In this document: positions 37,183 through 54,300 of the stretch, piece after piece
Position numbering within the stretch: position 1 is the first letter of the stretch
Layout: each line of letters opens with the position of its first letter
Assembly: GCA_963855995.1 (NCBI GenBank)
Contig: OY979726.1
Location: 1,452,501 to 1,516,500, forward strand
From: Muricea muricata
Taxonomy: Eukaryota > Cnidaria > Anthozoa > Malacalcyonacea > Plexauridae
Length of the DNA stretch: 64,000 bases
Direction of reading: 5' to 3'
Position numbers and translations under genes: made by a program
Notes under the pieces: generated by a model
What the model was told of the DNA's origin: nothing
Seen by the model: the letters and a program-made list of their open reading frames with translations, nothing else
Database searches by the model: none

Positions 37183-40100
37183 CTATTTGGACTTAGCTTT
37201 TACGAAGACGGCAAGAAGACTCTTATACACTTCGTCAGTGGATTTCGCCGCATCAATCTTGTGGTGTAGACCTTGTTTCCTGTAGTAATCAATTAATGGA
37301 GTCGTTTGTTTGTGGTAGCTTTCCAAACGATTCTTCAATGTTTTAGCATTATCGTCTGATCTCTTGATTAGAGGTTCGCCAGTTACCTAGGAAATGTGAT
37401 TGTTTGGAATCAAGTAAATAAGAGACGATCTTTAGCGGAAAGTCAGACAGTGTAGTTTAGTTTTTTTTCCTGTATTAACACTGGATCAATAACAGATGAT
37501 CCTTACTGAACCTCAAGGAAGAACAGTTTAGAACTGATAAAGCTAATCAGTATAAGTAAAGTTAGTTTAGTTTAGGTTTCCTCCTGTAGTACCACTGGAT
37601 CAATAAGAGATGATCCTGAGTGGACCACTAGGAAGAACAGTTCAGAACTGATAGAGCTAATCAGTATAAGTAAAGTTAGTTTAGTTTAGGTTTCCTCCTG
37701 TAGTACCACTGGATCAATAAGAGATCATCCTTACTGGACCTCTAGGAAGAACAGTTCAGAACTGATAGAGCTAATCAGTATAAATAAAGTTAGTTTAGTT
37801 TAGGTTTCCTCCTGCAGTAACACTGAATCAATAAGAGATAATCCTTACTGGACCTCTAGCAAGAACAGTTTAGAACTGATAATGCTATCCAGTATAAATA
37901 AAGTTAGTTTAGTTTAGGTTTCCTTCTGTAGTAACACTGGATCAACTTAAGAGATTCTACTAGACCTTAAAAGAAAAACAGTTTAGAACTGATAGAGATC
38001 CCCAATATAAAAACAACTGTAAAGTTGGAATCATTCTTACATCATCTATCATTGGTACTTTAGGTGGGTTGAATTCCTCATGGTACGAACGACCACTGGG
38101 CTTGTGAAATAATCTGGAATGTTACATAAACATAAAAACCTTTTAGCAGACAAGATCTTTAATCAACAAGTGATATCATCTGCCAGCAGACAGGGCAACA
38201 TAATAAAGCATGGCATATTATTTCCATGTGCTGCTGATCAATGTTTAAGGTGTGCAGTGTGCACTAGAATCACGAATACCAGAAGGGGGGGGGGGGGGGC
38301 TAACTTTTTCAAGAATGGTCTTTTAAGTTTGCATTTCAGTTGACACAAGGATGCAAGTGGACTGTCTGGAGTCTTGACATTGCTTTTTATCTATTTGTGC
38401 AGTGTGAGTCAATATAGAGGGTGTATAAAAACAGAGTCCTATGGTAAATCTCATTATATCTTATCCTGTATTTTACTAGTTTTCATGGTTTGGTTGTTTG
38501 GGTTTGTAAATAAGATTGAAATTTAGCCTTCAGGAGCTTGATATAGTTCTTGTAATGCAACTAAATTTAGACTGTATGGCTGAAAAAACTTAAATACACA
38601 GCCCTTATGTATTTCTGTGCCTCAAACCTCTCCCCAGCACTATCACAGCTTGAAGCATCCCCGTCCAAAATCAATCCTACTGAAAATGTAACTAATCTTC
38701 ACAAAAGGTCATTCATACCTGCCAGTAATCCTCCGAACCAGCAGTGAATCATCAATGGCAAATTCCACCACGGCATCCAGGTTGACCTTGCGTTTTTGCA
38801 GCAAATCATCAAGCTAGATAATCAATGTAGAGAGTTTAAAACCTCATGAAGAGTAAAATGCGAGGACATTTCAATAGCTTTCAAGACTATGTATGTTCAA
38901 GTAGTTAAAGAAAGTAAAGAGGACAGCAATTCAATCATTTGTGTGAAGTTCCAAGCAATTCCAAGACATTTCAAGCTACCAAAACTATAACTAAACATAT
39001 ATACTAAACATTGACCACAGAAACTATAGGGAATCCCACAGAAAACCATAGCTGATTTTTTAAAACTTTTAAAAATGTATTTTCAGTAGTTAAAACTGAT
39101 TTTTTTTCATGAGAGAATACACATTCAGTCATTTGTGTGATGTTTCAAGCACAACATCTTGTCATGTTACCAAAATTTACACCAGACTCCATAGGAAATA
39201 CCACAAGAGAACATAGCTGAAATTCTGGAAACTCCTTACATCAACTTTACCTTCTCAGCTTGAGTCACAGTCCTTGGAAAACCATCAAGAAGAAATCCAT
39301 TTTTGCATTCAGGCTTATTCAAATTGTCTGCAATTAATTCCACTACAAGATCGTCGCTTACGAGCTGGAAAAGAGAATCTTAAGTAATCAATGGCACAAA
39401 TTTCAAACTTTAAAGCCTACCAAGTGTTAATTACTCTGCCTTAGATGAATAACAGTTTGGCATTAGACAGAATAAAACACCAAAGTATTTAGGTGGAAAA
39501 ATCATGGCCAGTAGACAATTTAAGAAAACATAAAAAGAAACAAATTCTGAAAAAAAGTCATCTTGCAATTCAAGATACAAATAAAAACAAGACAAACAAT
39601 TCAAACTGAATTTTCGACTTTATTTCAAAGTCACCGTCAGACATTTCTCCAACCCAAACAAGGTTTTCATCATCAGCTTTGTAGTAGTTATGAGCCAATT
39701 AATCGGTAACTAATCGGCAAAGCCGATTATCGGCTAATTTTAAAATAATCGGTAATCGGCCGATTATTGCCTGATAATCGGAAAATAATCGGCTATAAGA
39801 CTTTCCCTGCATCTGCCAAGAACATGCTAAAATTCTCAATACAAGCGAATGGACTTTTCCATTTTGTTGCAAAATGTATGTCTTTTGACTCAAAACCCGC
39901 GTCTTTTGTCCCGTTAGTGGCTTGGAAGAAGTCATTAAAAACGCCATGCATTCCAATGCGTTGAGTCATACCATATTCTGTTTTCCGACTGACTCATCCC
40001 TACTTTGTAGTTATTCATATCACACACCTGACCACTGTCCATAACACCCTTAACTTTCTTGCCAAGATCTGATCCAGAAGCAACAACAGCTCGTAACATG

Positions 40101-51300: not shown

Positions 51301-54300
51301 TTAGGTCTCCTCCTGTAGTAACACTGGATCAATAAGAGATGATCCTTACTGGACCTCTAGAAAGAACAGTTTAGAACTGATAGAGCTATCCGGTATAAAC
51401 GAAGTTAGTTTAGTTTAGGTTTCCTCCTGTAGTAACACTGGATCAATAAGAGATGATCCTTACTGGACCTCTAGGAAGAACAGTTTTGAACTGATGGAGC
51501 AATCCAGTACAAATAAAGTTAGTTTAGTTTAGGTTTCCTCCTGTAGTAACGCTGAATCAATAAGAGATTATCCTTACTGGACTTCTAGGAAGAACAGTTT
51601 AGAACTGATAGAGCTATCCAGTATAAATAAAGTTAGTTTAGTTTAGGTTTTTCTTTTGTAGTAACATTGGATCAATAAGAGATGATCCTCACTAGGCCTC
51701 TAGGAAGACCAGTTTAGAACTGATAAAGCTTTCCAGTATAGTCAGTTCAAATCTTACCTCATCGTACAGATACACGCGGTCTGTATAATTGCTCAGACGA
51801 AACATCAAGTTCTCTACAACCTCAGATTTTATAAGATGTTCCTGAGTTGTCCCTTTATTCCCGTCTGACTCCTCGTCATCCACTATGAGATGACGTAATT
51901 GTTTATACCGCTCCACAAGTGGCTTCCGGTTTGTCTTATCACCCTGGCAACACTTTGTACACTTTCGAATGACGTCATCGCCGAAGTTAAACTCGCCACA
52001 ATCCTCGCACCGCCAGCAATCATCTTCAAGACCCGTTACCAGGTCTTCGAGACTATCGCTCAGTTTCTCGAGCCCGCACGCCTCACACTTTTCAGCGGCA
52101 TCCTGGTAGTTAAAATTCTTACATGACGTACACACCCACCAGTCGTCGTCTGTAATATCATCAAACTCTGACCCAATCCCTAATGGGTCCTCCGCCACTG
52201 TGTCTGCCTCGCATGATGAGGTCATAACCTCACCTTCACACGATGACGTCAAAATCTCGTCCGAGACCCCTTCATTTGGTGATTCAGACGCAAACAGATC
52301 AACATCACTTGTATTTACTTCCGCTTGAACCGGTTTAACTAGTATTTCAGGCTTAACTGGTATGTCAGGTTTAACTGGCGTTTCAAGTTTAACTGGTGCT
52401 TTGTCTGAGACCTCCTCATTTATTGGCACCGAATCGAGAAAATCAACATCACTTGTACATACATGAACTTCTGCTTCTTTAATTGGTATTCCGGTTTCAA
52501 CCAATACTTCTGGTTTAACTTGTATTTCAGGTTCGGCTGATACTACAAGTGCCGGCACTTCAGGTCTTAACATTTCAGGCATAACAAGTATTTCAGGTTT
52601 GCTTTCCGAGGGAAGTTCGCAGGAATTGCTTTTGTTTGACTCTGTATGCTGTTCATTAACTTCAACAGTGTTTTTTATCACCATTAAACCTATTCCATCC
52701 CCTGTCTGTTTACATTTAGACTCCCTATTACCCATTGCAATCACAGCTGAACCCTTCTTGCCCTTTCCGGATCTCTTACCACCATTTTTACCAGCCTTCG
52801 TTCGATCAACCGGGGAGCATTTCTGCCAAATTTGTCGCTGTTTTCGGGCGACAAGTTCATCGGTTGAAAACTTGGTATTAGTGGACTTCCTGCGGCTTTT
52901 GTATCGCGGCGTTTCGCACATCTCACACACGCGAAGAAAAGCGTTGTTGCTGTACGTACAAAGCGAACAACACCATGTTTTGAAATCATTTATATCTTCG
53001 GCACTGGTCGGCGCTAAAGGAATTGTTTTAGTTTGTATCACCTCAGAATCGATAGTTTTAACTGTGACCTCACTTTTTGCAGCGATTGGTCTGTTATCAG
53101 AACATTTACTCTGCTTGTCTAACGCGTTGGTCGAAGGCGAAGACATTGACTCATTTTGCTGATCTTCACAATCAACAACGCCAACATTAAATTCGCTTTT
53201 CTTCGTACCGACATGATCAGGAACAGCTGTAATGCTCGGGTCCTTGCTGTTCAAACCATCCTGGTTTCCCAACGGACTATTTGGAGCGACAGGAACTGAA
53301 TTAGTTTCGTCAACTTTGTCGTTTTTGACGGGGTAAGTAGTGCCACTAGTTTCTTTGCTGTCTTCAATCAAATCTAAACCACCTTCCTCGTTGCTTGTTG
53401 CAGAAGGCTCGACAATATCGGCAACTTTATTCGCGCCGCCATCGCTCTCAAAATTTTCACTTTTTGCCGCTGACTTTTTCAAAAGACGTGTATAAGAAGA
53501 AAGCATATCAACAACTTCGGGTCTTGCCGGCTCGCTCGTTTCGTCGTCGTCGTTTTTCGTTATTTCACGAACAAATTCCCATTCCATTTCTTGGCTTTCC
53601 GACGCAGTTACGGTCGCTGTTTCCCGCAGTACCTTAGGCGATTTCCTTTTGCCGGCTAGTTTGTATGTTTTCCTTGTTGTTTGTCGTAATGAATTATCTT
53701 CTTCAGTGTCGCTGATTATAACACGCACATCGGATTCACTTGTTTCCATGGCTTTTGTCTCGATTGTTGTGCAGTCTTTCTACAATAGCATATAATATAC
53801 GGTATAAACATACTACTCTCCAGTATAAATATACTCTCTAAATATAGTCTTACCATACCTCAACTAAATCAAAAGATGAATCTTGATTCTCAGTCCATTC
53901 TTTGCCACTGTCAGTTCTTCTGCACTTCGTCGCGGATGGTGAATGAAAAAACTCTACGACAGATCTTTGAAGCGAGTCCTGTTTTCGCTTCTTTTGACTC
54001 TAAACAAGAAAGCATCGACCATAGCGAAATAGAACACACAAAAAAACACGTAGACGTGCGACTAGAACACCTTAGCTTCAAACTTACGTATGTAAAAAGA
54101 AAATCATCTTCAGAAACTTCATCTTCTTCGTCCTCCATTACCCAGGCTGAAAATGCTTCAAGCAACTTCGACTGCCCCACGCTCCCTTCTTCAACATCCA
54201 TACCTTGTATCTTCCCATTTAACGTCGCTGTTGTCACGTAGACCTGGATTGCAACAAAATCTTGAATGTTATATACAGACCTAAAACGGCGCAGACTTGT

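Follow-up and report, generated by a model that had tools for sequence, protein, structure and literature searches.

Two neighbouring genes on the minus strand, AK2 and ZRANB3, are the subject of this analysis (Table 1). The window, i.e., the whole stretch of DNA analysed, is 64 kb long. The identity of AK2 is supported by a PDB match (E 1e-85), that of ZRANB3 by its HNH domain, which matches PDB 5mkw (E 1e-28). The 3' part of ZRANB3 encodes the end of the helicase C domain, a RanBP-type zinc finger which scores under the Pfam cut-off, and HNH; the SNF2 N-terminal part was looked for in 55270-63999 and not found. Introns are predicted from GT-AG ends and from a frame that stays open over every junction.

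Table 1. Coding regions, array-filled introns and 114-bp repeat (family B) arrays; positions are those of the window.
Feature	Position	Strand	Remarks
AK2 coding region, 7 exons	37183-41205	-	ATG at 41205; stop read at 37183-37185
AK2 intron 6, predicted	37387-38040	-	654 bp, phase 0, GT-AG
ZRANB3 coding region, 3' part, 10 exons	48314-55269	-	stop read at 48314-48316
ZRANB3 intron I_i (last), predicted	48503-48978	-	476 bp, phase 0
ZRANB3 intron I_h, predicted	49189-49730	-	542 bp, phase 0
ZRANB3 intron I_d, predicted	51261-51757	-	497 bp, phase 0
Array, 5.1 units	37449-38026	- (= gene sense)	AK2 intron 6; 90% identity; 88% of intron
Array, 3.7 units	48517-48940	-	ZRANB3 intron I_i; 94% identity; 89% of intron
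Array, 4.2 units	49225-49707	-	ZRANB3 intron I_h; 94% identity; 89% of intron
Array, 4.0 units	51288-51740	-	ZRANB3 intron I_d; 94% identity; 91% of intron
Array, 1.4 units	5976-6135	-	16 bp from break-off point of duplicated PH-domain gene copy
Array, 3.8 units	28830-29267	-	more diverged, 80% identity; no gene demonstrated nearby
Array, 2.9 units	30622-30955	+ (opposite orientation)	no gene demonstrated nearby

Family B forms seven arrays in the window, each of 1.4-5.1 units arranged head to tail; limits, copy numbers and identities were obtained by wrap-around alignment. The original prediction had a 114-bp repeat fill almost completely one AK2 intron and three ZRANB3 introns. This is confirmed: TRF reports 114-bp tandem arrays at all four sites, the GT-AG open-frame gene models reproduce the predicted intron limits, and together with the alignment they yield a coverage of 88-91%. 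The arrays were further said to start 20-50 bases from the donor and to stop shortly before the acceptor, which needs correction: the measured gap is 14-38 bp on the donor side and 14-62 bp on the acceptor side, and the splice sites lie beyond the aligned arrays. By eye, AK2 intron 6 has an extra degenerate piece of a unit at about 37405-37448.

Three of the seven arrays are located outside demonstrated introns. A Pfam search in six frames of 26100-35100 (E up to 0.1) gave no match around the arrays at 28830-30955, so that no gene-relative orientation can be assigned to these two. Six-frame Pfam searches at the same cut-off further returned only the PH domain in 17400-26101 and nothing in 41300-48299. 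For the array at 5976-6135 a clean gain of an intron was considered, the PH paralogue (22394-23028) retaining the empty site. This was rejected because 5301-8600 and 22301-24300 share a single match which ends at 5959; the upstream exon part of the PH gene is absent from the far side of the array. Exact patterns, three in viral_contigs (one of them representing the 80-bp family) and one in genome_contigs, had no match, nor did one family B array searched in phages.

The units of different arrays are as alike as those of a single array. For the 18 units of the four intronic arrays mean identity within arrays is 0.879, that between arrays 0.875 (permutation P 0.20); for the ZRANB3 arrays alone both values are 0.888 (P 0.47). 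Thus, the arrays seemingly arrived as several ready-made units. Units 3-5 of the AK2 array have a local variant in common, i.e., some local duplication also occurs.

A conserved RNA structure of the unit was rejected. The predicted fold has two main hairpins with a z of -1.24 against dinucleotide shuffles; mononucleotide shuffles on two units had given a stronger fold signal which this stricter control removed. Among the pair cells of 26 units 603 are unchanged, 28 one-sided, 4 compensatory and 70 broken. Substitutions fall evenly on paired (0.077) and unpaired (0.066) columns, as expected for unconstrained filler. A ribozyme or other RNA family was likewise rejected as the identity of the repeat: Rfam had no match in the whole window at the gathering score; a search of 48300-52000 that admitted E values up to 5 gave nothing within the arrays, only two weak snoRNA-like scores outside them.

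Does the repeat create introns or does it colonise them? AK2 intron 6 follows window codon 157 in phase 0 and aligns to residue 166 of the 239-residue AK2 chain 9gr0_A. In human AK2 (NM_001625.4) the splice donor c.498+1 follows codon 166. Codon and phase are identical, and from this shared position the AK2 intron probably predates its family B array; a parallel intron gain at this site is possible. Of the two alternatives initially put forward creation is therefore contradicted for AK2, and colonisation is supported. Probably the repeat moved into existing introns and was not their maker. The ZRANB3 introns I_d, I_h and I_i follow residues 833, 1015 and 1085 of the partial protein; for ZRANB3 of other animals, the consulted passages of a review (PMC12841045) yielded no exon boundaries.

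We consider it reasonably probable that family B is a dispersed satellite-like repeat whose ready-made arrays entered, or took over the interior of, very short existing introns. A dispersed satellite-like (minisatellite) family would have scattered arrays of a few 114-bp units across the region, possibly moving as multi-unit blocks, e.g., via circular DNA or a mobile carrier. Four arrays would have entered the AK2 and ZRANB3 introns, or have replaced their interior, leaving little beside them except the donor and acceptor regions. The array-free remainders amount to 44, 52, 59, and 76 bp. The sense orientation may then persist because the other strand bears poly(A) signals.

The single gene-relative orientation of all four intronic arrays, both genes being on the minus strand, stands as predicted. 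The proposal that the repeat is tolerated in one orientation only fares less uniformly. A plausible cause is at hand: in the four intronic arrays AATAAA occurs 10 times antisense and never in sense, where there is one ATTAAA, and on the antisense strand AATAAA is followed by a T/G-rich stretch. This excess fits a selection against premature polyadenylation. Yet the bias itself is unproven, as four out of four yields a two-sided P of 0.125, which is not significant, and three of the arrays reside in one gene. Plain chance would accommodate this: common arrays insert anywhere, and introns filled in the same orientation reflect luck and the picking of a striking case. The density of family B, seven arrays in 64 kb, agrees with such a view. 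It is opposed by the distribution of the arrays, as the AK2 and ZRANB3 introns constitute 8% of the array-free window and hold four of the seven (P 0.0012, post hoc and with incomplete annotation). It is also opposed by the remainders, every one of which falls below all 11 other introns modelled in AK2 and ZRANB3 (79-868 bp; rank P 1/1365, i.e., 0.0007). On balance, chance appears rather unlikely.

All four intronic arrays are in introns which after array removal are shorter than 125 bp. The probability of this is 2.6e-4 with length-weighted random insertion and 0.05 when weighted per intron. Random length-weighted insertion favours long introns; consequently, either a preference for short introns or a replacement of the interior has to be assumed in addition, which counts against the explanation we prefer.

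Replacement could have proceeded differently, i.e., introns of normal length swapped their interior for an array via recombination or gene conversion between arrays and kept their splice signals. This would cover both the old AK2 position and the remainders being shorter than all other introns. However, it requires prior repeat homology in every intron, and no intermediate was seen: the other 11 introns carry no significant trace of the 114-bp unit (allowing for 22 tests). We regard this route as unlikely.

A repeat remnant in the 79-bp ZRANB3 intron at 53780-53858 is not relied on. It consists of one 15-mer with one mismatch, the sole off-array match among 20 when up to 2 mismatches are permitted, and the pattern was picked after that intron had been inspected. 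The HMM E is 45, and the shuffle P is 0.005, the best result among 22 tests. When all unit 15-mers are used with up to one mismatch, 5 off-array matches result, 3 of them overlapping within 53780-53858; the reversed window also has 5, and shuffled units have a mean of 1.1, with 2 out of 40 reaching 5.

An introner-like origin, in which the repeat inserted in exons and was spliced out, thus creating the introns, at least the three of ZRANB3, would account for remainders below any other modelled intron, and in ZRANB3 intron I_i for the mere 14 bp from array to acceptor. In sense, the unit has a donor-like CCA|GTAAGG of 6.1 bits as well as acceptor-like sites of 6.5-7.0 bits, which are within the range of the actual sites of AK2 and ZRANB3 (donors 3.5-10.2 bits, acceptors 4.8-11.4 bits); a pseudo-exon spanning from the former kind of acceptor to this donor would have 77 nt. 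But the antisense unit also has a donor-like (4.4 bits) and an acceptor-like (5.4 bits) site, only somewhat weaker. Further, the donors of the four introns, GTAAGAATG, GTAAGATTT, GTTTGTAAG, and GTGAGCTAT, all differ and are outside the aligned arrays, repeats common to both exon-intron junctions do not exceed 5 bp in any of the four, and the array edges show no significant clustering of phases (P 0.23 and 0.22; P 0.047 only when the degenerate AK2 unit is included). With AK2 intron 6 at a human intron position such an origin is quite improbable. Very doubtful is the more far-reaching reading of a tandem-repeat introner in an animal, whose ready-made arrays would take over whole introns and have made new ones in ZRANB3; its sense strand would provide usable splice signals, namely a branch-like ACTAAC besides sites resembling acceptors and donors, its antisense strand poly(A) signals.

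The flanks were examined for marks of insertion. The AK2 array is bordered by a 9-bp target-site-like direct repeat, TGATTCCAA (P 0.0135, the best result from 7 arrays). If this were a true duplication, the AK2 intron before insertion would have measured about 33 bp, which is implausibly short. The array at 30622-30955 has an 8-bp flanking direct repeat (P 0.054); the remaining five have none of note. In 42 pairwise comparisons of 200-bp flanks the lowest P values were 0.01, 0.02, and 0.02 (100 shuffles each), about chance level. Among the comparisons of the 5' side, the three with the lowest P all link intronic arrays. Matches over 120 bp never reach beyond the arrays, and a carrier element of family B was not found in the window.

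Satellite repeats within introns are already known, and the intron filling described here is unusual in degree and probably ordinary in kind. Introns consisting almost entirely of satellite, in two genes and in one orientation, can serve as a gauge of which repeat strand is tolerated by the splicing and polyadenylation machinery, and of the minimum of intron sequence that is truly required. If the ZRANB3 introns were new, tandem repeats would join the known sources of introns.

How does family B relate to established systems? Searches of open-licence papers, judged by title and start of the abstract, turned up no report in which a single satellite unit fills introns of several unrelated genes with the same orientation. 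According to the available parts of the respective publications, amphioxus mirages are minisatellite-like repeats that duplicate a local exon-intron boundary, the unit being gene-specific (PMC3087553). Mirages and family B both are minisatellite-like, located at introns, and seemingly do not disturb splicing. In contrast to mirages, family B has one unit common to two unrelated genes and no exon inside. Family B was rejected as a mirage: the unit also occurs outside demonstrated genes, and the junctions are outside the arrays.

With introners, as described in the sections at hand, the family B introns share that introns of unrelated genes have most of their sequence in common (PMC9860276). Introners, however, create introns, whereas the family B introns have differing splice sites, and that of AK2, which matches human c.498+1 and thus is probably not newly gained, is likely to predate the repeat. 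The introner screen compares up to 100 nt per intron end (PMC9860276), and going by this description family B introns might pass it despite their differing splice sites. The word "tandem" is absent from the main text of that paper.

Cg_HINE of the Pacific oyster are Helentron-carried satellite-like arrays whose units, up to 5 on average, mostly measure 140-180 bp, and in the portion available they resemble family B as short dispersed arrays, some in non-coding parts of genes (PMC7492417). They are present in both orientations in assembled sequence, and their left and right flanks are conserved and bear inverted repeats (PMC7492417). For family B the 42 flank comparisons revealed no clear shared flanks, and it was rejected as a Helentron-carried array. 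Its few head-to-tail copies at seven places agree with dispersed satellite-like arrays. From what is accessible of the report, TCAST of Tribolium castaneum comprises euchromatic dispersed satellite repeats which are intron-enriched (P 0.005, all families together), neighbouring repeats being about as alike as distant ones (PMC5844308). Family B is similar in both respects, dispersal into introns and a likeness independent of distance. The difference is one of extent: TCAST mostly occurs as single repeats, with intron filling not reported in that part of the paper (PMC5844308), whereas the intronic arrays of family B comprise about 4-5 units and occupy about 90% of the intron.

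The original prediction, that a 114-bp tandem repeat nearly fills four introns of AK2 and ZRANB3 in one gene-relative orientation, holds for all four arrays. Coverage is 88-91%, and 4/4 lie on the same strand relative to these two minus-strand genes. By wrap-around alignment the arrays are 90-94% identical to one unit, with limits slightly wider than those of TRF. Both genes were modelled manually, with GT-AG sites and open frames as the guide, and the models were verified by exon joining; their splice sites are inferred. Joined, the seven AK2 exons are complete without internal stop codon, and the ten ZRANB3 exons, from the end of the helicase domain to the stop, keep an open frame throughout. 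The names are backed by protein matches; the ZRANB3 RanBP zinc finger scores under Pfam's cut-off. The SNF2 N-terminal part of ZRANB3 had no Pfam match in the three minus-strand frames of 55270-63999. Its earlier exons may lie beyond the window past a >8.7 kb intron or be too short for a Pfam scan, or the gene may be broken.

Introns of AK2 and ZRANB3 carrying the 114-bp repeat (array limits by TRF; array share by the wider wrap-around limits)
Intron	Gene strand	Length (bp)	Array	Unit (bp)	Array share
AK2 intron 6	minus	654	37449-37994	114	88%
ZRANB3 I_i	minus	476	48517-48930	114	89%
ZRANB3 I_h	minus	542	49225-49699	114	89%
ZRANB3 I_d	minus	497	51293-51740	114	91%

The unusual feature is the scarcity of non-array sequence in these introns. 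Without the array, 52 (I_i), 59 (I_h) and 44 bp (I_d) remain in ZRANB3, and 76 bp in AK2, an upper limit given a degenerate unit seen inside by eye. All four remainders are shorter than each of the 11 other modelled introns of the two genes (79, 88, 108, 121, 224, 437, 605, 652, 663, 846 and 868 bp; P 1/1365). That four hits all fell in introns <125 bp has P 2.6e-4 under length-weighted insertion and P 0.05 with each intron an equal target. AK2 and ZRANB3 introns make up 8% of the array-free window, yet hold 4/7 arrays; this P of 0.0012 carries little weight, being post hoc in an otherwise poorly annotated window. A 15-base, one-mismatch, gene-sense match to the unit at 53816-53830, in a 79-bp ZRANB3 intron, was unconvincing under stricter tests.

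Tolerance of one orientation only, as also proposed, gains a plausible cause, while the 4/4 orientation alone is not significant. The antisense unit carries AATAAA followed by a T/G-rich stretch. In the intronic arrays AATAAA occurs 10 times antisense and never sense (16 and 0 across all seven arrays); one sense-strand ATTAAA lies in I_i. An inverted array would therefore give the transcript several poly(A) signals, a reasonable explanation drawn from the sequence of one unit and four cases. In the sense unit a donor-like GTAAG and several acceptor-like sites score within the range of real sites, those of the antisense unit being somewhat weaker (donor 6.1 vs 4.4 bits antisense, acceptor 7.0 vs 5.4; matrices built from standard frequencies). 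Branch-site-like ACTAAC occurs 11 times sense and 0 antisense in the four arrays.

Creation of introns by the repeat is contradicted at AK2, where human AK2 has an intron at the same codon. The array intron follows window codon 157 in phase 0, aligned with residue 166 of the 239-residue mitochondrial AK2 chain 9gr0_A. Among the variants of human NM_001625.4 quoted from the clinical paper PMC13177848 is the splice-donor change c.498+1G>A, and 498 = 3 x 166; the position is thus common to both animals. The numbering fits because the chain has arginines at 103 and 137, in agreement with c.308G>A p.Arg103Gln and c.409C>T p.Arg137Ter from the same source. Its c.330+1G>C coincides with window intron 4, after codon 101 and ahead of the LDD aligned at 111. 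On the simplest reading of these alignments, AK2 intron 6 would be old and its array a later arrival. A literature look-up yielded no intron positions from other animals to set beside the three array introns of ZRANB3.

Units were compared where at least 60 columns aligned (26 units; shorter pieces excluded, pairs sharing <40 columns skipped). Among the 18 units of the intronic arrays, mean identity is 0.879 for units of one array and 0.875 for units of different arrays (permutation P 0.20); restricted to ZRANB3, both means are 0.888 (P 0.47). AK2 units 3-5 have a local variant in common, so some local duplication occurs. A more diverged array, with 80% identity to the unit, lies at 28830-29267. 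On the whole, the intronic arrays seem to have been drawn from a single shared pool, several units at once, and not to have grown each from a seed within its intron. In 42 flank comparisons (100 shuffles each) no clear shared flanks emerged (lowest P 0.01), and a notable direct repeat flanks the AK2 array only (P 0.0135, best of 7 arrays). Since neither test found a carrier, we only infer circular DNA or another vehicle.

No sign of a host-serving role emerged from substitution, pair-cell and Rfam tests: the units drift evenly, with substitution at 0.077 for columns paired in the predicted fold and 0.066 for unpaired ones, 70 pair cells are broken vs 4 compensatory, the shuffle z of the fold is -1.24, and Rfam gave no match at gathering score. 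In our reading the repeat is filler, tolerated by the splicing machinery.

Other elements populate the window. A segment carrying a single-exon PH-domain gene is duplicated (1502-2021 and 5325-5959 vs 21874-22397 and 22394-23028; 93 and 97% identity). One copy holds extra sequence (2022-5324) whose frames look THAP-like and RecQ-like by eye, and that copy's part at 5325-5959 ends abruptly 16 bp short of a 114-bp-unit array. Tandem families of 80 and 77 bp (24995-25387, 25674-26023, 45940-46286, 46733-46932, 35201-35550) share the core CAGTGTAGGTAGT and are related in opposite orientation (as good in 0/500 shuffles); the four arrays of the 80-bp family make two inverted pairs. A retroelement at 11639-17358, one long frame and Pao/BEL-like by eye, is probably a recent insertion, since its flanking 201-bp direct repeats are 100% identical. 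Three palindromes (31042-31318, 36812-37091, 58042-58232; ~190-280 bp, 92-96% self-complementarity) resemble short inverted-repeat transposons, one directly downstream of AK2.

Against known systems, the arrays depart from amphioxus mirages (PMC3087553) on their defining test. For introners (PMC9860276) the intron-gain test is negative at AK2, where it could be applied; the screen of that paper compares 100 nt at intron ends, and the arrays start inside this stretch, though splice sites differ. The oyster Helentron elements (PMC7492417) have similar short arrays but with conserved flanks, which the 114-bp arrays lack. Tribolium has dispersed satellite repeats that work the same way (PMC5844308).
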